This document shows, in pieces, positions 3,408 through 59,274 of a DNA stretch of 64,000 bases; positions within the stretch are counted from its first letter, which is position 1; each line of letters begins with the position of its first letter. The notes beneath the pieces are model-generated. The model saw nothing but the letters and a program-made list of their open reading frames with translations. It had not been told where the DNA came from and ran no database searches. This stretch comes from Bifidobacterium actinocoloniiforme DSM 22766. GTDB taxonomy: Bacteria; Actinomycetota; Actinomycetes; Actinomycetales; Bifidobacteriaceae. The DNA lies in NCBI RefSeq assembly GCF_001263395.1, contig NZ_CP011786.1, forward strand, positions 248,001 to 312,000. The letters run 5' to 3'. The position numbers and the translations under genes are program-made.

Positions 3408-4745
3408 ATGGAAAAACAAGAAGAGTTCGCCCTGCGTACGGTCGAGGAACGCGATGTTCGCTTCATCCGCCTGTGGTTCACTGACGTGTTGGGGACCCTG
3501 AAATCGGTGGCCATCGCGCCGGCCGAATTGGAGAAGGCCTTCGATGAGGGACTGGGGTTCGACGGCTCCGCGATTGAGGGCATGACACGGGTCTCCGAGG
3601 ATGACATGATCGTCAAGCCTGACCCCTCCACTTTCCAGATCATGCCCGCCCGGGGCAATGGACAAGGCACGGCCAGGATTTTCTGCGACATCCTGACCCC
3701 CGACGGCGAGCCAAGCCGGGGCGATCCCCGTCACGTGCTCAAGCGCTCCCTGGCCCGCGCCAAAGAGAAGGGGTTCACCTTCTACACCCATCCCGAAATC
3801 GAGTTCTACCTGTTCAAGGCCCAGGAGGACTGGTCGCAGCCACCCGTCCCAATCGACGAGGGCGGTTACTTCGACCACGTGCCCCGGAGCCCGGCTATGG
3901 ATTTTCGCCGCTCCTGCGTGAGCATGTTGGAGCAGATGGGTATCTCGGTCGAGTACTCCCACCATGAGGCCGGGCCGGGGCAGAACGAGATCGATCTGCG
4001 CTACGCCGACGCCCTGGCCACTGCGGACAACATCATGACCTTCCGCACCGTGGTCAAGGAGATCTCCCTGGAGTGGGGGATGCATGCCTCTTTCATCCCT
4101 AAGCCTTTCACCGACAAGCCCGGGTCGGGGATGCATACCCACTTGAGCCTGTTCGAGGGCGACATGAACGCTTTCTACGAGGTGGGACAGGAGTTCAACA
4201 TGTCCGCCCAGGCCCGGCAGTTCGCCGCTGGCATCCTGGCGCACGCGGCTGAGATTTGCGCGGTGACCGACCAGTACGTCAACTCCTACAAGCGGCTGTG
4301 GGGCGGTGCCGAGGCGCCCTCCTACATCTGCTGGGGGCACAACAACCGTTCCGCCCTGCTGCGCATTCCGCAGTACAAGCCCGGCAAGGGCAACTCCGCC
4401 CGCATGGAATTCCGCGCCCTGGACCCGGTGGCCAACCCTTACCTGGCCTTCTCAGTGCTGTTGGCCGCCGGGTTGGACGGCATCGAGCGCAAGATGACCC
4501 TGGGCGATCCCACCTCCGACGACGTGTGGGAGCTGACCGACGCCGAACGGCAGGCCATGGGCATCCAGCCCCTGCCCGACTCACTGGACACGGCGCTGAA
4601 AATAATGGAGAAGTCCGAGTTCGTGGCCTCTGTCTTGGGCGAGCACGCTTTCGAGTACTTCCTGCGCAACAAGCGTCGCGAGTGGAACGAGTACAACCGG
4701 CAGGTCACGCCCTACGAGTTGGAGTTCTACCTGCCCCGCCTGTAG
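3408..4745 (+). CDS. glnA: glutamine synthetase, type I (GlnA2-like)
   Basis: Makes glutamine from glutamate, ammonia and ATP in the cytosol. The protein starts MEKQEEFALRTVEERDVRF and continues into the RLWFTDVLGTLKSVAI and GFDGSAIEG segments of the GS beta-grasp domain, then the catalytic domain with RIPQYKPG and RMEFRALDPVANPYLAF. At about 445 residues it is shorter than the adenylylated GlnA1 form (about 478) and resembles the actinobacterial GlnA2 group. In-frame ATGs at 3378 and 3402 are possible starts; 3408 is chosen because the conserved N-terminus begins there. The stop overlaps the convergent gene's stop by 19 bases. Confidence 0.93.
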   Translation: MEKQEEFALRTVEERDVRFIRLWFTDVLGTLKSVAIAPAELEKAFDEGLGFDGSAIEGMTRVSEDDMIVKPDPSTFQIMPARGNGQGTARIFCDILTPDGEPSRGDPRHVLKRSLARAKEKGFTFYTHPEIEFYLFKAQEDWSQPPVPIDEGGYFDHVPRSPAMDFRRSCVSMLEQMGISVEYSHHEAGPGQNEIDLRYADALATADNIMTFRTVVKEISLEWGMHASFIPKPFTDKPGSGMHTHLSLFEGDMNAFYEVGQEFNMSAQARQFAAGILAHAAEICAVTDQYVNSYKRLWGGAEAPSYICWGHNNRSALLRIPQYKPGKGNSARMEFRALDPVANPYLAFSVLLAAGLDGIERKMTLGDPTSDDVWELTDAERQAMGIQPLPDSLDTALKIMEKSEFVASVLGEHAFEYFLRNKRREWNEYNRQVTPYELEFYLPRL

Positions 4746-5737
4746 AACCGCCCGGCCTCGCGCAGGACCGGCTTTGGCTTGGGCGAGGCCGACGGGGTTG
4801 ACTGCTTAGGCGGGTCGAACCAGTTCTGGTAGATGACTGAGAAGTTCCTGTTGCCGTAGGCTGAGCATGCATCGCCCTCGCCCACGCCGGCCTTGAGGGC
4901 GGCTTGGTTGGGTTGGTAAGGCGTGTAGATGTAGAGCAGGGCGGTCGCATCATTCTCGATGTAGACGTCTGAAGCGCCGCAGGAGGCCTTGGGGGAGTAG
5001 CGCACCGAGTTGATCCGCCCAGGCTTGAACTGGTACTCGTCCATGTGAGCCTGGTAGTAGCGGTAGCGGTGGGCGGCTCCATACACTTGGTTGAAGAAGC
5101 CCGCGTAAGCCGGGTCGCAGTCCGCGTCGTCGGGGCAGGACAAGCCCATGGCCGCCTTGTACTGCAAGGGCGTGGGGGCAGTGGCCGAGACCAGGTGCTG
5201 CTCCTTTTGCAGCATGGTCAGCAGGACCTTCTGGCTGATCCTGCAGGAGCGGGCGGCCCCATCGATGATGGTGGCCGCTGACTGGGCTTTGCCGCCCTGG
5301 TACTCGTCGCACAAATCATCGGCCGGCTTGGACGGAACGTCCACCTTGTAGGACTTGAGGCAGGGTTGTGAGCTTCTGGTGGTCTGGGCGGTGCAGGTGG
5401 CGCCTTTCTTGTCCAGGAAGGCCTGCACGTCGTCCGCGTTCATACTGGTTGTATCGAAGAAGCGCTGGTCGGAGATAATCAGCCCAGGATTGAACCCATA
5501 GAGGTCGTTGGATTCCTCCTGTCCATGGCGGACCACGGAGACCCGAGCCTGGTAGCTGAGGAAAGCCAGCCCGGTGATGACCAGGGCCAGGACCAGGAGG
5601 GCCGCCAGCGTCGCAGCGGCGCCCGTCTCCACCCTGCGGGCGAGGGACTGGCGCCGCCAGCGGGCGTAGAGGCGCTCGAAACCTCCCTTGCCCCTGCCTT
5701 TGGACTTGGAATTCTTCGACGATGCGCGAGTGCTCAT
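4727..5737 (-). CDS. membrane-anchored exported protein of unknown function
   Basis: 336 residues. A basic N-terminus (residues 1-40) precedes one transmembrane helix (TLAALLVLALVITGLAFLSY, about 43-62), after which the protein should lie outside the membrane. The outer part has several cysteines (GATCTAQ, SQPCLKS, DDLCDEY, SCRIS, SCPDDADCD, SCGASD), and motifs such as KVLLTMLQKEQHLV and QVYGAAHRYRYY. These recall actinobacterial secreted proteins with a lysozyme- or hemagglutinin-like label, but no catalytic residue can be named. The C-terminus is rich in Pro, Ser and Lys. Start 5737 lies 2 bases after the hrpA stop, so the two are probably co-transcribed. Confidence 0.75.
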   Translation of the reverse strand: MSTRASSKNSKSKGRGKGGFERLYARWRRQSLARRVETGAAATLAALLVLALVITGLAFLSYQARVSVVRHGQEESNDLYGFNPGLIISDQRFFDTTSMNADDVQAFLDKKGATCTAQTTRSSQPCLKSYKVDVPSKPADDLCDEYQGGKAQSAATIIDGAARSCRISQKVLLTMLQKEQHLVSATAPTPLQYKAAMGLSCPDDADCDPAYAGFFNQVYGAAHRYRYYQAHMDEYQFKPGRINSVRYSPKASCGASDVYIENDATALLYIYTPYQPNQAALKAGVGEGDACSAYGNRNFSVIYQNWFDPPKQSTPSASPKPKPVLREAGRFYRRGR

Positions 5738-5738
5738 C

Positions 5739-8700
5739 TCAAGCCTCCAATGCTTTGCGAATGCGCTGGATGCTGACCGGGCGAGGGGCGCCAAGCTCCT
5801 GGGCCCACAGGGATACGTAGAAGTCCTCCAACATCCAACGGGCGCGGTCGGTCTGCTCCGCCATCTCCTCGCGTCGAGGGCCGGCGGGTAGCCCATCCGC
5901 CCGGGCGCGTGCCTTATCGACTAGCTGCTTGGCCTCATCCGCCTGCCAGGCCCAGCGTACATCGCGGTCCTTATCGACCCGGGCCTTGGTCAGGCGAATC
6001 AGGTCGGCGTGCAAGTACCGCTCGAAGGAGGGCAGCGCTTGCGGGGGTGCGGCGCCGATGAAGCCGGTGTGCACCAGGGAGGCGGCATGGTCGCGGATCC
6101 ATTGCAGGACCGAGAGCATGGGCAGGTCGGCGGGCCCGGAGACCGCTTTGTCCACCTCGGCGTAGCGCTGGAGGATGACGATGATGTCTTGGGCCAGGCG
6201 ATAGACCGTGTCCTCGAAAACGCCGGAGATCTTGTAGACCGCCTCGGTGAGCGCTTGGTCGTCGGGCAAGTCCGCCACACGTGGCAGAAGGCGCTTTACC
6301 GCAGCCAGTTGCAGGTCATCGACCAGGGCCTTGGTTGACGGGTAGGGGGCGGCCGCCAGCATCAGGGCCTCACGGCTCAGCCAACGCGAGGAAATCCGCT
6401 CGTCAGGAAGCTTCAGGGTCTTCAGGGCCCCTTGCCAGAGCATGTCGGAACGGGGGATGGTGGTGGCACCGGAACGTTGGAGCAGGTCGGCGCGCTTGAC
6501 CACCTGCCCCTGCCGGGCAGCCTTGCGGGCCTGAGTGGAGACCCGGGCCTGGGCAGACCGCCGCGCGGGTTCGGCGAAGCGGCGCTGGAGGTCGCCCAGG
6601 GACTTAGAGCGACCGAGGACCTTGCCCTGAGGGGCGCCGGAGCGCTGCCCTGGGCGCCGACCGTGGCGGTCATGGTTGCCATGCCCGCCACGGCCGGTTT
6701 GCGTCGGCTCCTCGACCGCGAAGGTCATGCGTAGGTATGGGGGCAGGCGGTCCAGCTGCTCGGGCGAGAAGACCTGGGGGTGGACCTGGGCGCCGACCAC
6801 ATCGATCGCGGCCTGGGTGAACACCTGATCGAAGGGTGGCCAGGGAGCGGCGATGGGCTTGGCGTCGGATTCAGTGGGCGGCTCCTGGGCCGGGTCCAAA
6901 GGCGCGCTGCCCGGCAGGCGTGGGTAGCGCTCGTCAATCCAGGCGCGGATGGCCCGGGCTGTGTCCGGGGCGGGCACGAACTGGCGGCGCAGGGCCTTGG
7001 GCAGGGATTTGATGGTGGCCACAATCAGCTCATCCAGGAGGCCAGGCACGTTCCACGTGAACTGTTCAGGGGTCAGCTGGCCCAGGGCGGCCAGCGGCAC
7101 GTGCAGGGTGACCCCGTCCTCAGGGGACTGGGGGTCGTAGACATACGACAGACGCAGGTCAATCGGGGAGCCATCGGTGCCCACCGTGTGCCAGTGGTCC
7201 GGGTAGTCGCCCGGGCGGGCCGAGGATTCGCCCTGACGCAGACGCTCGACCTGGGTCGGGTCGAATGTCAGCATATCCGGGTCCTTGGCTCGAGCGCCCT
7301 TCCACCACTTGGCCAGGGCGGCCAGGGAAGTGGCTTCCTGCGGGAGGCGCTCATTATAAAAGTCGTAAAGGTCCTCATCGGTGGCGCTTTGGGCGACCAG
7401 GCGGGTCTTGGAGGCTTGTTCGCCCTCCTCTTGCAGGACGCGACGGTTGCCCTCGATGAAGTCGTCGTAGGAGAAGCGCTCGCGGATGTCGCCTTCCACG
7501 AGGCCTTGGCGGATCAAGAAGTCCCGAGCCTCCGAAGGGTTGATCGAACCCCACAGGACCGGCCGGCCCGATACGATCGGCAGGCCGTAGAGCAGGACCG
7601 TCGAGGAGGCCACAGCGGCCCCCTTGGTGGCGGACCAGTGGGGTTCGGCGTAGGTGACGCGAGTCAAGTCGCCGGCCAAGGACTCGGCCCAGGCTGGGTC
7701 CACGGCGGCGCAGTAGCGTGCCCATAGGCGGGAGGTCTCCACCAGGCCTGCTGCCATGATCCAAGGTGGAGGGGTCTTCGCCAGGGCGGATGAGGGGAAA
7801 ATCGCGAAACGGGTGCCGCGCGCCCCTCGGTACTCGTTGCGCGAGCGCTTCTGGGCCCGCTTGATGGCCTTGGCCCGGGCCGCGCCTTTCAAGCCGGCGA
7901 ATTGGGAGGCCTTGGGCTCGGTCACCACCTGCATCCCCAGGCTTGAAAGAAGGCCGGACAACATGCAGCGGTGGAGGCCTTCTCCGTCCCAGGAGCAGGC
8001 CAGCGATCCCCGCCCCTGCTGGGCCAAGGGCAGGGCAAGGGCCTCGCTCTTAGGGCCGGAAGCCGGTCGGGGCTGGCCCACCTTCATGCGCATGTCCTGG
8101 CAGGTCTGGTCCAGCTGCCGGTACAGGTCGTGCCACTGGCGCAAGCGGGGGAAGCTCAGGAACTCGTTCTTGGAAAGGCGGCGCAGGGTAGAGGAGGAGG
8201 CCTTGCCGTCTGGGAAGCAGTGCTCCCAGAGGTTCAGCACGGTCACGAAGTCCGAGGAAGGGTCCTGGAAGCGGGCGTGGAGGCGGTCGGCTTCGTCGCG
8301 TTTGTCCTCGGGTCGCTCACGCGGGTCCTGCAGGCTCAGGAAGGCGACGACCACGATGACCGCGGCCAGCGTGTTGGGTGTGGCCTCACGGTCGGCTTGA
8401 AGGATCATGCGGCCCAGGCGGATGTCGATTGGGATGCGGGAGAGCCTGCGGCCCAGCCGGTTCAGCCTGATGCGCCCATGGTCGCGGTCGATGGCGCCGA
8501 GTTCGGTCAGCTCGTTGAAGCCGTCGGAGACCGCCTTGACGTCCGGTGGGTCGATGAAGCCGAAACCGGTCACATCCTGGGCCGTGTGCGCTACGCCGAC
8601 TGAAAGCATGTGCAGGACGACGGCGCCCAGGGAGGTGCGCAGGATTTCAGGGTCGGTGAAGCGTGGGCGGGATTCGTAGTCTTCGCGCGAGTAGAGGCGG

Positions 8701-35618: not shown

Positions 35619-36016
35619 GGGGCTGATCGGTTTCGACGGTGACCTGTTCGTCGCAGGGAAGCGTGCCGAGAACGCGGGGGTCCACTCGTTAATGCCCTCC
35701 CGCAACAATCAAGTGCTAAATCTAACCGCACTGAGTTCGCTCTCGCTGCCTGAGTTTTAAACCAGGATTAACCAGCGAGCTACGGCTCCGTTCACTCTCT
35801 TTCGTTTCCGGGGAGATGCTGAGCGTCATTTAGGAGACTTGCTTGAGCTGCCGCGTCACAGGACGGCTCAGGGACTTTTACTGTGACTATGCCCGCCATC
35901 CGCCGTCTGCGGTATGGGTGGGGGCAGAAAAACAGCCATACGGCCAGCAGACTACGCACGTAGAAGACTGAGGGTACGGTCACCGGACCGGGGTTCAATT
36001 CCCCGCAGCTCCACCA
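35619..36016 (+). ncRNA. ssrA: transfer-messenger RNA (tmRNA)
   Basis: Rescues stalled ribosomes and tags the nascent peptide. The 5' GGGGCTG pairs with 3' CAGCTCC, followed by A and an encoded CCA at 36014-36016. The resume codon is GCT at 35715 and the tag reads AKSNRTEFALAA, ending at TGA 35751-35753. The T-arm GGGTTCAATTCCC is intact. The gene is complete despite the prophage beside it, so integration restored the 3' end. Confidence 0.97.
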
Positions 36017-36020
36017 ACAT
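35985..36020 (+). other. probable left attachment site (attL) in the ssrA 3' end
   Basis: The integrase gene begins 155 bases beyond the tmRNA and everything to its right is phage. Integrases that use tmRNA genes recombine in the T-arm/acceptor 3' region and keep the RNA intact. The exact core cannot be set without the right end (attR), which is outside the window. Confidence 0.5.
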
Positions 36021-36162: not shown

Positions 36163-36170
36163 GATTGGTC

Positions 36171-37472
36171 ATGGGAAGAACGAGGGCATTCGGCAGCATC
36201 GCCTACAAGCCATCCAAGCAACGGCTCACACGGATCGTGGCATCCTTCCTGACCCCGCAGGAAGCGTTCGCCACATGGCCCAATCTGGCCGAGCGGCAAA
36301 GCAAGTCATTTCCGCCTGGCCAGGAGGACGAGGCGCGAGCCTGGTTGAGCATGGCGCACAAGAAGATAGAGGCCGGAGTATGGGAGCCTCCTGTGGCAGT
36401 CAAACAACGGGAGAAGTCGGCCCGTCTTACACTGGGGGAGTACTTCCCACAATGGCTCGAGGACCGCACCTTCAAGGGGCGGCCGTTGAAAGCAGGCACC
36501 CGGTACCGGCTGAGGAAGGATGTTGAGAACCACATTCTGCCTTGGTTCGGTGCCATGCGCCTCATCGACATCACCCAGGCCGAAATAGACCGTTGGCTAG
36601 CCTCCATGCCCGCAGAGCAGACCGCTATGAAGTCCAACGCGTTGAAGGCGCTGCAAGCCATCCTCAGATCCGCAAGCCAACCCGGCCTGCACGGAGAGCC
36701 AGCCTTGATTCCCGTGTACCCGTGCACCAAGTCCCTGCCCAAGCCCGAACGGCGCAGCCAGACTGTGCCCGCCACGCCGGAACAGGTCAAGGCCATTTAT
36801 GACGCCATGCCTGAACGCTATCGTATGGCCGTTTACTTGGCCGTGTTCGGTGACGGGCTGCGCATAGGCGAGGTGTGTGCGCTGCAACGGCGGGACATCG
36901 ACCTCACCTCACGGACGCTGCATATCCGTCGCGGGCGCGTGACCATGGATCGCTCGAAGACGACCGACACACCCAAGACCGACCGCAGTATCCGCGACGA
37001 GCGCATACCGCCCCAACTGGTTCCATTGCTCCAGGACTTCCTCGCGGAATACGTAGGCTCAGCGGGAACGGCATGGCTCTTCCCGAAAGTGAAGGATTCT
37101 TCCGCACCCGTGCATCCCAACTCTTTGCGCGCCTGGTATGACGACGCCAGGAAGGAAGCCGGCCGACCTGATCTGCGCTTCCACGACCTGCGCCACACCG
37201 GCCTGACCTGGCTGGCGGCCGAGGGTGCCACCGTCCGCGAGCTCATGGATGCGGCCGGCCACGCTGACGTGAACACTGCCATGCGCTACCAGCATTCCCT
37301 CGACACCCGAAAGGACCTGCTGGCCGAGCGCCTGGGCGACAAACTCCTGCCGGACGAGACGCCGGAGATTCTGCGAGCGCGGATCGCAGATCTCGAAAAG
37401 AGGATTCGGAAGATGCAGCGGGAGAGGCGAAGCCTGCGCGAAAAGTTGAAAACGCTGGAGGCACAACTCTAG
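36171..37472 (+). CDS. int: tyrosine-type site-specific integrase
   Basis: 433 residues from the ATG at 36171 (AGGA 7 bases upstream; a TTG at 36165 is in frame). N-terminal AP2-like arm-binding region, core-binding SAM-like domain (TLGEYFPQWLEDRTFKGRPLK), and catalytic domain with Arg in GDGLRIGEVCALQ, HDLRHTGLTWLA (HxxR), GHADVNTAMRYQHS (His and nucleophile Tyr). A C-terminal coiled coil (RIADLEKRIRKMQRERRSLREKLKTLEAQL region) is unusual in length. It integrates and, with a partner, excises the phage at ssrA. Confidence 0.96.
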   Translation: MGRTRAFGSIAYKPSKQRLTRIVASFLTPQEAFATWPNLAERQSKSFPPGQEDEARAWLSMAHKKIEAGVWEPPVAVKQREKSARLTLGEYFPQWLEDRTFKGRPLKAGTRYRLRKDVENHILPWFGAMRLIDITQAEIDRWLASMPAEQTAMKSNALKALQAILRSASQPGLHGEPALIPVYPCTKSLPKPERRSQTVPATPEQVKAIYDAMPERYRMAVYLAVFGDGLRIGEVCALQRRDIDLTSRTLHIRRGRVTMDRSKTTDTPKTDRSIRDERIPPQLVPLLQDFLAEYVGSAGTAWLFPKVKDSSAPVHPNSLRAWYDDARKEAGRPDLRFHDLRHTGLTWLAAEGATVRELMDAAGHADVNTAMRYQHSLDTRKDLLAERLGDKLLPDETPEILRARIADLEKRIRKMQRERRSLREKLKTLEAQL

Positions 37473-37833: not shown

Positions 37834-38832
37834 TTAGAAGGGGTTGGCGTCGGATATGGCGAGTTGGAGGCGGTCGAGGGGTTCGCCGAGCATGCCGGCC
37901 CAGCCGTCGTACGCGTCGTAGGTGCTGCCATCGTCGCAGCACACGTCCAGCCAGCCGGCCCTCGCGGCGGTCTGCGCGCGGTAGTAGACCTGGCTGACTA
38001 GGCCGTCGGGGCTGGTGTAGTAACACTGCACCCCGTCGATGGCCTGGCCGGGCACGCCCGCGCATCCGTTCACGGTGTCGTTGATGTCGCCGTGGTCGAT
38101 CCAGTCCAGCCAGTCGCGCCCGGCGTGGACGCGGTAGCGCAACTGGCCTCGGTCCACGCGGATGGCGAGCAGGTCGTGGCTCGTGCAGGGCAGACCCGCA
38201 TAGCCGTCAGCCCCCAGGCCGAAATCGGTGACCTCGGGCAGCCAGCCGCCGCCGGCCACACGCAGTCGATAGTGGATGGGGACCGTGAGCGGCCTGGTGG
38301 GGTTGGTGTCACCGCTGGAGGCGGGAGCCGTCGGCTCGGGGCGACGGTCGGGCCGTGGGGGCGTGGACCCAGTGTCGGGCAGGCCACGGGCTATCCGGTC
38401 GATGCGTCCAAGGTCATACGTGCCCGGGCAGGCGGTGTTGAACCAATGATTGTGCGGATGCAGGGGCAGGTCACCGTAGGCGGCGCGCAGGTCGCGCACC
38501 AGCTCCGCGATGGTTTGGTAGTCGCCGTCCGACTGGCGCGGGTTGCACTCGATGCTGATGGACTTGTCGTTGCCACCGGAGCCGACGCCCACCCCATCGC
38601 CGCACGCCCAGGCCCGGTCCCCGGGGGCGACCAGGCAGGCCACGCGGCCGGCCTCGGCGACGTAATGCGCCGACGTGCCGCGAGCGCCGGACGTGAAGGT
38701 TTGGATGACGCCCTCGAAGGTGGGGTTGGAGGCGGGGTCGCCCCACCAGTGGATGGTGATGGAGTCGATTCCGTAGGGCCGGCCCGGCGTGTAGCACGCC
38801 GCGTCGTATTGGGTGATGTCCTGGTAAGCCAT
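37834..38832 (-). CDS. endolysin: N-acetylmuramoyl-L-alanine amidase with wall-binding repeats
   Basis: 332 residues. Residues 1-150 are an Amidase_2 domain with zinc ligands probably His28 (SITIHWWG), His127 and Cys135 (in HNHWFNTACPG). A Pro-rich linker follows (about 165-190). The C-terminal half has clostridial-hydrophobic-type repeats (GYAGLP, GCAGVPGQAIDGVQ, GWAGMLGEPLDRLQ), which bind cell wall. No signal peptide, so export depends on the holin. GGAAGGGAG lies before the ATG. Confidence 0.92.
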   Translation of the reverse strand: MAYQDITQYDAACYTPGRPYGIDSITIHWWGDPASNPTFEGVIQTFTSGARGTSAHYVAEAGRVACLVAPGDRAWACGDGVGVGSGGNDKSISIECNPRQSDGDYQTIAELVRDLRAAYGDLPLHPHNHWFNTACPGTYDLGRIDRIARGLPDTGSTPPRPDRRPEPTAPASSGDTNPTRPLTVPIHYRLRVAGGGWLPEVTDFGLGADGYAGLPCTSHDLLAIRVDRGQLRYRVHAGRDWLDWIDHGDINDTVNGCAGVPGQAIDGVQCYYTSPDGLVSQVYYRAQTAARAGWLDVCCDDGSTYDAYDGWAGMLGEPLDRLQLAISDANPF

Positions 38833-54350: not shown

Positions 54351-55793
54351 TCAGACCATCACTTTCTGCACTCGTCCGGGACGTCGTTTGGTGATGAAGG
54401 TGCCGTAGAGCGCCAGCGTGCAGGCGACCAAAGGGCTGATGTCGATGTCGCTGCCGAGCTTGTTCCAGCCGACCGCGCCCGAGCTGCCGATGTTGCGGGT
54501 GGTGGCGTTACTGACAGCGAGGTCGAGGGCGGGTTGTTTACCGTCGTCCAGGTGAGTGAGCTTGCCGTCGCGCAGCATGTCTAGCATGCGTCCGCAGGCG
54601 CGTCCCATGTCGGTGGCGGTGGTGGTAATGACCTTGACGTGGCGGGCTTTCAAGTCGGGCAGGAGGGCCATGGCAGGGGATTGGGCATCGATGACGAGGG
54701 CGGCAGTGCGACTCCAGCGGTCAGCGATCCAGTCCACAGCCCAGGCGGTGCCTTTCGACTGGGTGGACTCGAAAGCCTTCAATTCGATGTGAGCAGTGCC
54801 GTCGCTGTGTTTGACGCAGCCGCCGATGGCCAGGCTTGAGCGGTCTGGTGGCATGTCTATGGCGTAGCCGACCAGTCCGGTGGTGTCCGGTGTGCTGGTG
54901 GCGGCCTGCCGCCATTGCGTGGGGTCGATGGCGCTGCTGATGGTCGCGGTGTCCCAGATGCCCAGGCCCTCGCGACGGAAGCTGTCGGGGCTGAGCTGTT
55001 TCTGCAGGCGCAGGATGGAGCTGGCCGGCGTGCGCCTGGGGTAGGACGGGTTCGCTTTGGACCATTGGTCGCGGTCATCGGGGTCGGCGTCGGGGTCGGC
55101 GCTGAATTCGAGGTAGAGCATGTCGTCGCCGTCGTTGAGCGCTTCCTGCCGGCGCGCGGTGAACGCCTCGGACGGGTCGCCGGGCTTGGGCGGGGTGCCC
55201 ATCATGATCAGCAGGCCATTGTCGGCGGTGTTCATGGCGGGCACCATGTCACTCATGGCGGTCTCGGTCAGAATCTGCGCCTCGTCGAAGATAACCACGC
55301 CCACGCCCTTGAAACCGCGGCCGAAGCCGCGTTCGCGTGCGCCGAATAGTATGCGTGACCCGTTGCTGAAGGCGACCTCCTGCTGGCCGTTGGCGCTGCG
55401 GATGCGGGAGATGTGCCGGCGTACCCCTTTGCGCTGGGCCATGGCGCGCATGTCGCCGAACGTCTCGTCTGAGGTGCGTGAGCGATGGGCGGTCCATAGG
55501 ACCATGAGCCCCGGGTGCAGGATGCACAGCATGAAGACGATGGAGCCGATTAGGAAAGTCTTGCCCACCTGTCGGCACAGGCTCATGACCACGCCGCCGA
55601 CGCCGGCCGCGTACTTGCCATCTGCTCGCTTAGCCAGAATGAGCATGCCCAATCCGTCCTGCCAACGGTCGAACTCGATGCTTAGCAGCGCCTGAGCCAG
55701 GTCCCTGACCCTGGGCCATTCCGAGGAGACGATGCCGGAGGGGATGAGCAGGTGGCGGGCGGACTCAGATAGCTTCGGCGCTGAACGGGACAT
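54351..55793 (-). CDS. terminase large subunit
   Basis: 480 residues. The ATPase motor has a Walker A variant LCRQVGKTFL, Walker B VVIFDEAQIL and a C motif region (LLIMMGTPPK). The C-terminal RNase H-like nuclease has Asp in GYAIDMPPDRSS, and LVIDAQSPAM. Packages DNA into the procapsid. Overlaps the small subunit by 29 bases and is 1 base from the portal gene. Confidence 0.95.
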   Translation of the reverse strand: MSRSAPKLSESARHLLIPSGIVSSEWPRVRDLAQALLSIEFDRWQDGLGMLILAKRADGKYAAGVGGVVMSLCRQVGKTFLIGSIVFMLCILHPGLMVLWTAHRSRTSDETFGDMRAMAQRKGVRRHISRIRSANGQQEVAFSNGSRILFGARERGFGRGFKGVGVVIFDEAQILTETAMSDMVPAMNTADNGLLIMMGTPPKPGDPSEAFTARRQEALNDGDDMLYLEFSADPDADPDDRDQWSKANPSYPRRTPASSILRLQKQLSPDSFRREGLGIWDTATISSAIDPTQWRQAATSTPDTTGLVGYAIDMPPDRSSLAIGGCVKHSDGTAHIELKAFESTQSKGTAWAVDWIADRWSRTAALVIDAQSPAMALLPDLKARHVKVITTTATDMGRACGRMLDMLRDGKLTHLDDGKQPALDLAVSNATTRNIGSSGAVGWNKLGSDIDISPLVACTLALYGTFITKRRPGRVQKVMV

Positions 55794-56241
55794 CTTGCGC
55801 CTCGCTTTCCTCGTTGATCAGGGGGAAGGCCGGGCCGTCGTCCTCCTGGTAATCCTCCAGCTCCTTGGAAGCCGAGAGCAGCTGCCTGGAGAGGGCCGGA
55901 AGGTCCCTGCTGGAGGTCTTGTCCGATTCGATGGCTTTCTTCAGCCGGCGCACGGTCAGGCGCAGCATGTCCTCGTAAGTGGGCAGCGGGTCAACCATTT
56001 CCTCGAAGTCTTCCTGAGACAAGTGCTCAGGGTTTTTACGTCTGCGTGGGGTGGCCTTGGCTTGCTTGGTCGTCCTACTTGATGCTGGTGTTGACCGGGT
56101 GCGGTTTCGACTGGCTTGCTTGCGGCAGGCTGGTGAGCAATACTTCTGATCCTTCCGGGAGGGGATGAATGCTTTGGAGCACTGCGGGCATTTGCGGATC
56201 TCTGCGGATAGGGACTCGTGCGACGTTTTTCCGCTGCTCAC
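55765..56241 (-). CDS. terminase small subunit with N-terminal zinc finger
   Basis: 158 residues from a GTG with GAGGAGG upstream. N-terminal CPQC...CSPAC finger (residues about 18-39), a basic linker (ASRNRTRSTPASSRTTKQAKATPRRRK-like) and a C-terminal helical region (YEDMLRLTVRRLKKAIESD). Recognises the packaging site and oligomerises. Zinc fingers in small terminases occur in some actinophages. Position before the large subunit is decisive. Confidence 0.8.
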   Translation of the reverse strand: MSSGKTSHESLSAEIRKCPQCSKAFIPSRKDQKYCSPACRKQASRNRTRSTPASSRTTKQAKATPRRRKNPEHLSQEDFEEMVDPLPTYEDMLRLTVRRLKKAIESDKTSSRDLPALSRQLLSASKELEDYQEDDGPAFPLINEESEAQDVPFSAEAI

Positions 56242-56397: not shown

Positions 56398-56745
56398 TCA
56401 CCAGTCGCCGCTGGTCTCCAAAGGCAGGGAGGTGGCTCGAATGTCCTCGGAACGGCCTGTTCGTTGAAGCTGTCTGATACGCTCACGTGCCCAGTCGACG
56501 GTGTGGTTGGATCTGATGCGATTGCACCAACGGTGGGCAAGGCAACAGTTGGAGAAGTCGGTGGCCGAGCCGCCACGGCTGACCGGCACCAGCTCATCCA
56601 CCTCGGGACTGCCGGGCAATCCCGCCGGCAGACTTTTGTCGACCGGACGGCCGCACAGGTGGCAGGTGTCATAGGCCGCCTTGACCCTTGCCGTAACCTG
56701 GTCACGTCGCCACCCATTGGTTCTGCGGTTATTGCGCCTGACCAT
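56398..56745 (-). CDS. HNH endonuclease beside the terminase
   Basis: 115 residues. Zinc knuckle CHLCGRPV and HNH core EVDELVPVSRGGSATDFSNCCLAHRWCNRIRS. HNH proteins next to terminase genes are required for DNA cleavage at cos in HK97-type phages, so this phage likely has cohesive ends. Glu/Asp replaces the first His (EVDELVPVS; usual VDHIVP), which occurs in some of these phage proteins. Confidence 0.85.
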   Translation of the reverse strand: MVRRNNRRTNGWRRDQVTARVKAAYDTCHLCGRPVDKSLPAGLPGSPEVDELVPVSRGGSATDFSNCCLAHRWCNRIRSNHTVDWARERIRQLQRTGRSEDIRATSLPLETSGDW

Positions 56746-56914
56746 TGTCTGGTGTCTGGCTGATGGCTACCCATGCACCTTGTGGGTAGGCGGCGATGGT
56801 TCTGAAGTGCCGGCCCCATACCGTCAGGGTGCCGGTCTTTTTGTCGACCCGGTAGCCCTTGGCTTGCGGCAGTGGGGTGGGTTCTTGGTCTGGTGAGGTG
56901 CTGAGGCGGTACAT
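56729..56914 (-). CDS. short phage protein of unknown function
   Basis: 61 residues with AAAGGAAA upstream. One compact domain: KGYRVDKKTGTLTVWGRHFRTIAAYPQGAWVAISQ. Overlaps the HNH gene start by 17 bases, so the two are coupled. It faces the plus-strand island across 86 bases. Confidence 0.6.
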   Translation of the reverse strand: MYRLSTSPDQEPTPLPQAKGYRVDKKTGTLTVWGRHFRTIAAYPQGAWVAISQTPDNGQAQ

Positions 56915-56963
56915 TTTGTTTCCTTTCCTTGTGGTTTACCATGCTATTCTTTAATAACTGTGC

Positions 56964-56973
56964 TACTATAGTA
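56964..56973. promoter_or_regulatory. palindrome in divergent promoter region
   Basis: TACTATAGTA is a 10-base perfect palindrome in an AT-rich 86-base region between the late operon (minus) and the plus-strand island. It contains TATAGT on both strands, so it could serve as -10 elements for both and as an operator. Confidence 0.4.
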
Positions 56974-57000
56974 ATTCTCGACAAGGAAAGGAGGTTGGAC

Positions 57001-57111
57001 ATGGATGATATCTGGCAGGCAGTCACCGCGCTGGGGACCTTCCTCGGCGGGCTTGCGGCGCTGATATCCGCCATCAAATCCGATGGCAAGCGCTGCAGAC
57101 GCAGAAAGTGA
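57001..57111 (+). CDS. 36-residue membrane peptide with basic tail (toxin-like)
   Basis: MDDIWQAVTALGTFLGGLAA then LISAIKSDGKRCRRRK. One hydrophobic span and a C-terminus of Lys and Arg. A very strong GGAAAGGAGG ribosome site. The shape is that of small type I toxins and holin-like peptides; no antisense RNA was identified. Could instead be a superinfection-exclusion peptide. Confidence 0.5.
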   Translation: MDDIWQAVTALGTFLGGLAALISAIKSDGKRCRRRK

Positions 57112-57118
57112 CGGCAAA

Positions 57119-57151
57119 GGGGTTCCGGTTAGCCTTACGAACCGGAACCCC
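57119..57151. terminator. hairpin after the small peptide gene
   Basis: A perfect 12-bp stem (57119-57130 with 57140-57151) and a 9-base loop. There is no T-run on the plus strand. It starts 8 bases after the peptide stop. Confidence 0.5.
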
Positions 57152-57181
57152 GGCCTACCAGTCTAATCCATGGAGACCATC

Positions 57182-57334
57182 ATGAGGAAGATAAGCACAT
57201 ACGGATACTCAAGCCCGGCGTTCTCTCTGGCAGCAGCGGCATCGGCCGGGTTCGGGTGGCCCGTCTGGCTTATGGCCGGCTTGGCCGTGGTCGGCGGGTG
57301 CCTGGGTCTGATGGCTGGGCGTGACGATGAGTGA
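57182..57334 (+). CDS. 50-residue membrane protein
   Basis: MRKISTYGYSSPAF start, then a hydrophobic span (WPVWLMAGLAVVGGCLGLMAG) and GRDDE end. GGAGA lies 5 bases upstream. The stop overlaps the next gene start (57327) by 8 bases, so they are coupled. Function unknown. Confidence 0.55.
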   Translation: MRKISTYGYSSPAFSLAAAASAGFGWPVWLMAGLAVVGGCLGLMAGRDDE

Positions 57335-57524
57335 ACGGTTCTTGTCCCTGACGGAAATAGCCGGACGGCTTGGAATAACGACGGGGGCCCTGGCGAATTA
57401 CAGGCTCCCCGAACCCGACGTAATCGTGGGACGCACACGTGGATGGAAAGCGGAGACCATCGATGAATGGAACCGCAACCGTCCCGGTCGCGGGGTCGGA
57501 GGAGGACGACCGAGAAAGAAGTGA
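57327..57524 (+). CDS. small HTH DNA-binding protein (excisionase/AlpA-like)
   Basis: 65 residues from the ATG at 57327. MerR/AlpA-type helix-turn-helix: SLTEIAGRLGITTGALANYRLPEPDVIVGRTRGWKAETIDEWNRNRP, basic Gly/Arg tail. This small winged HTH type includes excisionases and phage transcription activators. It is on the same strand as the integrase and opposite the structural genes. It may control excision or the late/early switch. Confidence 0.7.
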   Translation: MSERFLSLTEIAGRLGITTGALANYRLPEPDVIVGRTRGWKAETIDEWNRNRPGRGVGGGRPRKK

Positions 57525-57580
57525 GGTCATCCGGCTCGCGTCAGTGTTGTCGGTGTGGCGTGTGGCGTGGCCGGGTCGGC

Positions 57581-57648
57581 ACGGCGTGAAGGCTCGAACT
57601 CCCGTCCATGGTTTGGAGACCGTCGGGCTACCTGTTGTGCAACGCCGC
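57581..57648 (-). tRNA. degenerate tRNA-Trp(CCA)-like sequence
   Basis: The acceptor arms pair at seven positions (GCGGCGT with ACGCCGT, one wobble) and the T-loop GTTCGAGC is present. The anticodon loop reads CTCCAA, with CCA, one base short of normal; the D-stem pairs poorly and CCA is not encoded. Probably a decayed phage tRNA. It lies in a 309-base gene-free region (57525-57833) that holds nothing else recognisable. Confidence 0.4.
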
Positions 57649-57833: not shown

Positions 57834-58400
57834 TTAGCGCAGTTCGCCTTGCACGTCTTTGGTGAAAGTTTGAATGGCCTTTTCCAAATTAATGGTTATC
57901 TGAGGGTTCAAGTCCATTTCTTCTTCATCACCTCCTACGAACAAGCGAGGCAATTTCGTATTAGAGGGATCCAAAGTGTAATCAAGCATGAAGTTGGATG
58001 CCTTAACTAAACTGTTTGCGCCTTTTTCGAGAGGCGGATAATTCGCTATAAGTGCGAATTTGATACCTCTAATTTCGTCCAGTACTTTCTGCTGAGAATC
58101 ACGATAACGATCCATTTTGGAACCGTCATCAGGTGTGAAGTATTCCAGCGCACTGGAACCATCGGATGATAGACTTAAATCAAGTCTCCAAGACAGCTCT
58201 GCAAGTCGTTCGCTTAGCCGTTCAAGAATTAAACAGTTGCTCAATAACTTGTCGGCAAGAGAGTTTAGTTTTTCGTTTGATTGGTCTTTTTTATTGCGAT
58301 GAATCTCAAACCATTTTGGCAGAAACGGTGCAAAAATACCCGATATCAATCCAAAGAAAGCACCAATAAGAGTTGTAATAGCGCTCGAGCTAATCGTCAT
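57834..58400 (-). CDS. AT-rich membrane-anchored accessory protein (moron)
   Basis: 188 residues. An N-terminal membrane segment (ITTLIGAFFGLISGIFAPFL) and a cytosolic helical domain (EKLNSLADKLLSNCLILERLSERLAELSWRLD; LEKAIQTFTKDVQGE). Base and codon use are far more AT-rich than the neighbours. The ATG has no ribosome site; TAGAAT six bases upstream could give a leaderless transcript. It stands apart from the early genes, as lysogeny-expressed morons do. Superinfection exclusion or abortive infection is plausible. Confidence 0.7.
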   Translation of the reverse strand: MTISSSAITTLIGAFFGLISGIFAPFLPKWFEIHRNKKDQSNEKLNSLADKLLSNCLILERLSERLAELSWRLDLSLSSDGSSALEYFTPDDGSKMDRYRDSQQKVLDEIRGIKFALIANYPPLEKGANSLVKASNFMLDYTLDPSNTKLPRLFVGGDEEEMDLNPQITINLEKAIQTFTKDVQGELR

Positions 58401-58542
58401 ATTCTGATTCTACAATGGCGAAGACCCCTGAAAGTGCTCTTTCATGGGCCTTCGTCAAGCATTATCTTCAGTTTTGTGAAAATCACCCTGGCTTCGCCAC
58501 AAATGACCAACACTACTAGTATTGGCGGTGACAGCACTCTTG

Positions 58543-59274
58543 TCAATTTTCGGTGACAGTCCGTCTGGTCAAGGCCTGCCATACGTCCCATAGCAGATAC
58601 ACGGGCTTGCCATTCTGCACGCCCACCTGGCGGATGATACCCCGCTTGCGCCACTGGCTGACCGTGTTTCTCTTGATGTCTACCCCACAGCCTTTCAATA
58701 GGTCGCACAATCCTGCTGCGGTTCCTTGGGTCCCACATGAGGCCAGGCGCAGTATCCTGATCTGCTGCACCTCCTTGACTTTCAGGGTCCTGCCGCAGGA
58801 GGGGCACACGGTCCATCCGCCCGCGATGTCCTCTTCGCCGCACCACAGCTCGGCCCCGCACCGGTCGCAATAGCCGATCAGCGTGCGGTCCTCGGGCGGC
58901 GTGAACTGGCGGTCCATACGTGTCACAAGCACGGCGGCCACGCGCTTGATGATGGTGGCGTCGGGGCGGGCCCGCAGTTGGTCCTGACGCTCGATGGCCG
59001 CGGCCAGTAGCCCCTCCGCCGGCACATGCCGCTGGCGCACCCCCACCGCACGCCCCAGGCTCCTGGCGTAGCGCTCGATGTCCTCCATGAGGTTCCACGC
59101 GCCCAAGTTCAGCGGGACCGGGGCCACGGTGCGCTGCCCTCCCCGAGACTGCCTGGCCATCACGGACGCCTTGCGCGCGGCGATCTGCCGCAGGTCAGGC
59201 AACCGCTCGCGTAGCAGGCGCAGGTCACGGCCGAACCGCTCCCCGTCGGGGTCCTGGCTGACGGTCTGGCTCAT
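58543..59274 (-). CDS. zinc-ribbon and helix-turn-helix phage protein
   Basis: 243 residues. N-terminal helical region, two Cys pairs forming a zinc ribbon (YCDRCGAELWCGEE ... VCPSCGRTLKV, about 135-165), then a C-terminal HTH (TAAGLCDLLKGCGVDIKRNTVSQWRKRGII). Its start overlaps the end of the neighbouring gene (ATGA). Actinophages often encode such a protein in the early region; a regulator or replication factor is possible. No firm function. Confidence 0.7.
   Translation of the reverse strand: MSQTVSQDPDGERFGRDLRLLRERLPDLRQIAARKASVMARQSRGGQRTVAPVPLNLGAWNLMEDIERYARSLGRAVGVRQRHVPAEGLLAAAIERQDQLRARPDATIIKRVAAVLVTRMDRQFTPPEDRTLIGYCDRCGAELWCGEEDIAGGWTVCPSCGRTLKVKEVQQIRILRLASCGTQGTAAGLCDLLKGCGVDIKRNTVSQWRKRGIIRQVGVQNGKPVYLLWDVWQALTRRTVTEN

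Follow-up and report, generated by a model that had tools for sequence, protein, structure and literature searches.

Introduction

Among the closest described counterparts of the locus reported here are the Q-type antiterminators. In lambdoid phages, Q binds between the -35 and -10 elements of pR', meets RNA polymerase during a pause at a -10-like sequence and enables it to read through terminators (accessible text of PMC6606751). The Pseudomonas protein AlpA acts likewise at PalpB, and the known Q families are described as lacking significant similarity to each other in sequence (PMC9371919). As far as these two sources describe them, the regulator gene adjoins the late promoter in both systems (pR'-tR' for Q of lambda and 21, PMC6606751; PalpB-tB for AlpA, PMC9371919), and the accessible part of PMC6266700 reports cargo downstream of the Q gene and late promoter of lambdoid phages. 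Prophages attached in the tmRNA gene have been described in bifidobacteria in a 2018 study in whose main text the terms antitermin, terminator and promoter do not occur (PMC6109161). In the literature searched, from which subscription journals were largely missing, we found Q-type antitermination reported for no bifidobacterial phage.

Here we describe a bifidobacterial prophage in which the gene of a Zn-ribbon and winged helix-turn-helix protein (Zn-HTH) adjoins a predicted late promoter, as the regulator genes of Q and AlpA do, and in which an orphan gene, ORFX, lies downstream of both, as the lambdoid cargo does. We consider it fairly probable that ORFX is acquired cargo in a slot of a tmRNA-integrated prophage, transcribed in the lysogen and situated beside a Q-type switch.

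Results

The host genome is a single contig of 1,830,060 bases, of which the window, the whole 64-kb stretch of DNA analysed, holds the features listed in Table 1. The prophage ends are marked by a 24-bp repeat in the tmRNA gene (35994-36017) and its copy about 35.9 kb further on; attachment site and size are similar to those of the bifidobacterial tmRNA prophages described in the available text of PMC6109161. The late genes run leftwards starting at the HNH endonuclease and the terminase, whose matches include bifidobacterial phage terminases; these matches, together with the tmRNA tag, point to Bifidobacterium as the genus. The early genes share the strand of the late ones, occupy the right-hand side and comprise a DNA methylase recognised by Pfam as well as SSB-like and other genes named by eye. 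ORFX has the early Zn-HTH gene on one side and HNH/terminase on the other, in agreement with the first-pass annotation, which had placed it between the early and late regions.

Table 1. Coordinates of the features of the prophage locus, in positions of the window.
Feature	Position	Strand	Remark
Integrase-like ORF	36165-37472		named by eye; after the tmRNA repeat
Amidase-like lysin ORF	37834-38832		named from sequence by eye; about 20 kb from ORFX
Small and large terminase subunits	54351..56241	-	small subunit assigned by position
HNH endonuclease	56398..56745	-	first clear late/packaging gene
Small ORF	56732..56914	-	conserved in several relatives; late side of slot
Three small ORFs	56929..57524	+	against phage direction
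Degenerate tRNA-like sequence	57578..57648	-	relaxed ARAGORN only; Trp-like anticodon loop by eye
ORFX, orphan gene	57834..58400	-	ATG start; 188 aa, 188 codons; from the ORF list
TAGAAT, -10-like hexamer	58407..58412	-	6 bases upstream of ORFX ATG; leaderless geometry
Leader hairpin of predicted late promoter	58419..58454	-	immediately before ORFX; lacks a long T run
CCAATACTAGTAGTGTTGG, near-perfect 19-bp palindrome	58507..58525	-	overlaps -10 and first transcribed bases
AATACT, -10 of predicted late promoter	58518..58523	-	
CTGTCACCG, putative binding element	58526..58534	-	between -35 and -10
TTGACA, -35 of predicted late promoter	58541..58546	-	overlaps Zn-HTH stop codon
Zn-ribbon and C-terminal winged-HTH protein	58543..59274	-	last early gene; candidate Q-type antiterminator
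Second CTGTCACCG, direct repeat	58551..58559	-	inside 3' end of Zn-HTH gene

The composition of ORFX is foreign to the phage. Its GC content is 41.4% against a mean of 63.5% over 1269 sliding windows of 567 bp, just three of which are equally low, which bears out the earlier description of an AT-rich gene unlike its surroundings. The GC values per codon position are 47.6, 36.5 and 40.2%, whereas third positions reach 64-84% in ten neighbouring genes. When the interval was shuffled 2000 times with its composition kept, an ORF of this length appeared in 5 cases, and ORFX is therefore very likely coding, with this length statistic rather than homologues as the ground. The hydropathy profile has a single hydrophobic segment at about residues 5-29 (Kyte-Doolittle maximum 1.86) and nothing above 0.62 past residue 45, as expected from the N-terminal membrane helix proposed at first pass. 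The helical cytosolic domain proposed with it fared less well: helices are predicted by AlphaFold2, but in a poor model made without an alignment (pLDDT 58). The structure search that had been suggested for the 188-residue protein returned no match to this model among viral models at E 0.001.

Relatives of ORFX are missing from all 198 other genomes of the relatives set, from 50,697 phage records, 72,556 plasmid records and the species-genome collection. A viral collection holds one locus that is identical over the whole protein and may represent the same prophage. As a query against the 20 fetched related-prophage loci, ORFX found nothing at E 1e-3. It matches no Pfam, NCBIfam or PADLOC family and has weak PHROGs matches only, the top one of which, phrog_1009 (E 0.009), was rejected because this profile, which probably captures helices in general, also gave matches in 4 of 14 control genomes. 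A draw of 396 genomes from the phylum gave six weak matches outside its own genome (E 0.03-0.07); two of them were rejected, as neither locus has the arrangement. Orthologues of the kind expected for a core phage gene are thus absent from the relatives searched, and ORFX bears two marks of a moron: it is an extra gene missing at the same place in close relatives, and its base composition is unlike that of the phage.

For a survey of the slot between the Zn-HTH gene and the first late gene, 20 genomic places and 23 viral-contig loci were fetched, many of which represent the same prophages. Slot length was measured in 19 of 32 sequence-distinct loci, the other 13 having no recognised late gene in the fetched DNA. 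The distance from the Zn-HTH gene to the late gene is 100-282 bp in six of the 19 (L043, L044, L051, L052, L081, L083) and 1.1-4.1 kb in 13, including the ORFX prophage (1.8 kb). The cargo is unrelated between prophages and comprises DUF4145/HEPN, HicA and HigB-like proteins and AT-rich membrane proteins. DUF4145, assigned to the HEPN family in the accessible text of PMC3710099, occurs in L037 (Pfam E 9e-18) and, by resemblance, in L042 and L047; the L037 protein also matches the PADLOC profile PD-T7-4 (E 3e-9). L046 and L086 carry a HigB-like/antidote pair (addiction antidote E 2e-30), and L047 and L048 carry HicA (E 5e-22), in each case with one locus tested and the other assigned by resemblance. 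The slot of L036 holds a gene of 34% GC on the opposite strand with membrane-like segments, and tRNA genes are found in L037 (tRNA-Gln) and L046 (tRNA-Arg). Even the closest relative of the ORFX prophage, L035 (TerL 88% and HNH 91% identical), has two unrelated AT-rich genes of 335 and 202 aa (GC 46 and 43%) in this place. Judged from these sequences, related prophages have a variable cargo site in the interval that separates the Zn-HTH gene from HNH/terminase.

In the ORFX prophage, the tRNA-like sequence is not reported by standard ARAGORN or by Rfam. The third of the small plus-strand ORFs (57321-57524) matches phrog_597, a DNA-binding family, and recurs in L042 at 69% identity. The description of ORFX as standing alone holds with a reservation, since the interval also contains the degenerate tRNA-like sequence and the three plus-strand ORFs.

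The start of ORFX fits leaderless transcription. The best Shine-Dalgarno match upstream of its ATG is 4 of 6 (GTAGAA) and is itself part of the TAGAAT hexamer; the first-pass annotation had noted a promoter-like TAGAAT and no ribosome site. By our own reading of the sequence the -35 is weak (3 of 6 at best), and no terminator was found on the ORFX strand at its downstream end. Across slots, 8 of 13 cargo starts are preceded at 6-8 bases by a -10 hexamer (at least 5 of 6), compared with 0 of 9 ordinary genes of this prophage, seven of which match the Shine-Dalgarno sequence at 4 or more of 6 positions; the cargo starts were hand-picked and come from few families (three DUF4145, two HicA, two HigB-like), and the background set is small. 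From composition, a hexamer of at least 5 of 6 at 5-8 bases before the start is expected in 2.6% of cases. The hexamers include TAGAAT in ORFX and TATAAT in both HicA genes, and with this pattern the leaderless idea, first raised for a single gene, covers four families of cargo. Taken with the varying slot content and the lack of ORFX in the relatives searched, the recurrence of leaderless-type promoters in cargo lends good support to the original view of ORFX as an accessory gene, or moron.

Relatives of the Zn-HTH protein occur in 44 of 199 genomes, its own included, with four invariant cysteines and a conserved HTH. An AlphaFold2 model based on 19 sequences (pLDDT 83) has a helical N-terminal part, a four-Cys region and a winged HTH, whose fold resembles the BldC/MerR type (Foldseek prob 0.95; VIA Z about 4-5). 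VIA matches of the C-terminus are to MerR/Xis/terminase-like HTH domains, whereas the DinB-like bundles that it matched to residues 3-126, with Z up to 7.1, were dismissed as within the tool's stated noise. The model has no PDB match at E 0.001. Neither Q of lambda, 21 or 82 nor AlpA is among the sequence, Foldseek and VIA matches listed; because no Q structure is among them, we say that the protein would work like Q and not that it is a member of a Q family.

Directly after the Zn-HTH stop codon, most relatives have TTGACA or a close variant, a spacing of 16-18 bases, a -10 hexamer and then a hairpin. In 27 of 43 distinct loci the -35 is exactly TTGACA and a TG[TC] element stands in register with it. 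The late-promoter score has a median of 13 in the 43 loci and of 9 in 860 control stretches (p 1e-19, an optimistic value because the score includes CTGT letters learned from the same loci). Hairpins 25-170 bases after the stop are more stable than in shuffles (z < -2) in 28 of the 43, and that of the ORFX prophage reaches -23.0 kcal/mol against -13.1 in shuffles (z -4.4) and ends 18 bases before the ORFX start. An Rfam His_leader match overlapping this hairpin (25.2 bits, cut-off 49) was taken as chance. By eye, a TATAGT/TACAGT-like sequence recurs after the -10 in the initial transcribed region, where Q-type control would call for a -10-like pause element. The palindrome CCAATACTAGTAGTGTTGG occurs once in the window and is possibly an operator.

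Between the -35 and the -10, and ending 0-2 bases upstream of the latter, is a 9-mer (CTGTnnnnn) that varies in sequence from phage to phage, with a second copy upstream of the -35 in several loci, as in the ORFX prophage. Where a site could be assigned, in 36 of 43 loci, the 9-mer co-varies with the Zn-HTH recognition helix (L030, L032, L033, L034, L036, L049 and L050 are omitted, having no assignable site or helix); the co-varying residues lie in helix 202-210 of the model. A Glu before the conserved Trp of the helix goes with GG at site positions 5-6 (8/8 against 0/28 others), and an Arg or Lys two residues before the Trp goes with a CGC site end (11/11 against 0/25). About nine of the sites were set wholly or partly by eye, among them L022, L024, L025, L027, L028, L029, L031, L041 and L052. 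Near-identical proteins with different helices have different sites (L073/L074/L076, N-terminal parts 97-99% identical), as do L044/L083 (81% identical) and L037/L072 (87%), and the same helix in other proteins goes with the same site (ADTIKKW with CTGTCCCGC in L048 and L093). The code also holds where cargo parts the gene from its promoter by 0.7-0.9 kb (L042, L046, L047, L048, L080, L086). Given N-terminal identity, the co-variation persists among these loci, which are related to each other (partial Mantel r 0.59, 0/5000 permutations). The sequences thus support recognition of the 9-mer DNA element by the Zn-HTH protein.

Discussion

Our comparison suggests that the Zn-HTH protein probably represents a new Q-type antiterminator family. 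As far as the accessible text of PMC6606751 and PMC9371919 allows, it shares with Q and AlpA a recognition element between -35 and -10, here indicated by sequence and co-variation, a consensus -35 and an intrinsic-type hairpin downstream, although that of the ORFX prophage has no long T run. A C-terminal HTH is also present in lambda Q, which is described with a zinc finger, and direct repeats at the promoter are known from 21. Unlike Q and AlpA, it is found in a Gram-positive actinobacterial host, has a MerR/BldC-type winged HTH preceded by a four-Cys ribbon and gave no sequence or fold match to them among the matches listed, its activity being predicted from sequence. By analogy, the protein would bind the 9-mer between -35 and -10, load on early-paused RNA polymerase and carry it through the leader hairpin.

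We infer antitermination rather than activation from the layout. The Zn-HTH protein could instead activate, or repress, the late promoter in the classical way, and the hairpin would then be an ordinary early-operon terminator. Its BldC/MerR-type fold would suit such a role, and MerR proteins also bind between -35 and -10. However, a promoter whose -35 is usually TTGACA, 16-18 bases from the -10, should not need an activator, and the hairpin is found downstream of this promoter rather than on the side of the Zn-HTH gene. We regard classical regulation as rather unlikely.

The explanation for ORFX starts from its orphan status and foreign composition, the changing slot content and the -10 hexamer at leaderless distance. 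The gene would have been acquired horizontally into the slot between the early and late modules and a leaderless promoter of its own would drive its transcription in the lysogen. Since its start lies just past the leader hairpin of the late promoter, it could stay on while the late operon is off; we propose from the 18-base distance that it uses its own start in the lysogen and receives additional read-through once the late genes are switched on. Because ORFX follows the predicted late promoter in the same orientation, transcription during lytic growth may also occur. Tentatively, ORFX may cross the membrane once, N-out/C-in, and use its helical part in the cytosol to block superinfecting phage by exclusion or abortive infection, a role suggested by its topology and by the defence-type genes that other prophages carry in this slot. 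According to the accessible text of PMC10883804 (SieA of P22) and of the review PMC11436027, ORFX resembles morons and superinfection-exclusion proteins in being accessory, in having its own promoter-like signal and as a predicted membrane protein; it differs from SieA-type proteins in that no sequence relation was found, its -35 is weak and its role is a prediction. Unlike the lambdoid cargo in the accessible part of PMC6266700, ORFX and other slot cargo appear to have their own leaderless promoters, and ORFX matches no toxin.

Other functions are conceivable. Its strand and its position directly behind the late promoter and leader hairpin would suit a gene of the lytic phase, for example a membrane-acting lysis or takeover protein expressed by read-through and without a role in the lysogen. 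This we find improbable, as ORFX is absent from the relatives searched, an amidase-like lysin ORF already exists in the prophage and ORFX lacks the ribosome site that translation within a long leader transcript would need. We give a similarly low chance to a function in host fitness or plasmid-style maintenance, as a toxin or part of a toxin-antitoxin pair: HicA-type and HigB-like modules do occupy the same interval in related prophages, but ORFX has no adjoining partner gene and belongs to no matched toxin family. That ORFX is a chance ORF within decayed AT-rich DNA would account for the missing homologues and for its weak coding periodicity, and it is nevertheless very improbable in view of the shuffling result, the plausible start signal and the membrane helix.

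Taken as a whole, we lean towards a bifidobacterial Q-type family that reads a 9-bp element and stands next to a cargo slot for leaderless defence and toxin-antitoxin genes, with ORFX as a new orphan type among them. If this is true, another sequence-unrelated family joins the processive antiterminators of the Q/AlpA type, in phages of gut Actinobacteria, and provides a readable protein-DNA code that is directly testable with natural pairs of protein and site. The slot would then be a place to look for new defence genes of bifidobacterial prophages, with ORFX, the 249-aa gene of L036 and the gene pair of L035 as candidates. This pair is a candidate two-gene defence system and has no convincing Pfam, PADLOC or NCBIfam match.

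The L035 pair lies at about 3500-5980 of its locus, between the Zn-HTH gene and HNH, and the 202-aa protein has several hydrophobic segments. Among four records of distant phage relatives, the promoter layout was not found within 900 bases in Jace, Pitbull or Bryler and is present in ctl617. The Jace protein, gp92 of this Gordonia phage (L094, 2306-3097), is a distant Zn-HTH relative annotated as terminase small subunit, and its gene precedes an array of tRNA genes close to the right end of the genome. A second, distant Zn-HTH homologue with 27% identity is encoded in the same genome as ORFX (G000:C1:993829-994428) and belongs perhaps to a second prophage.
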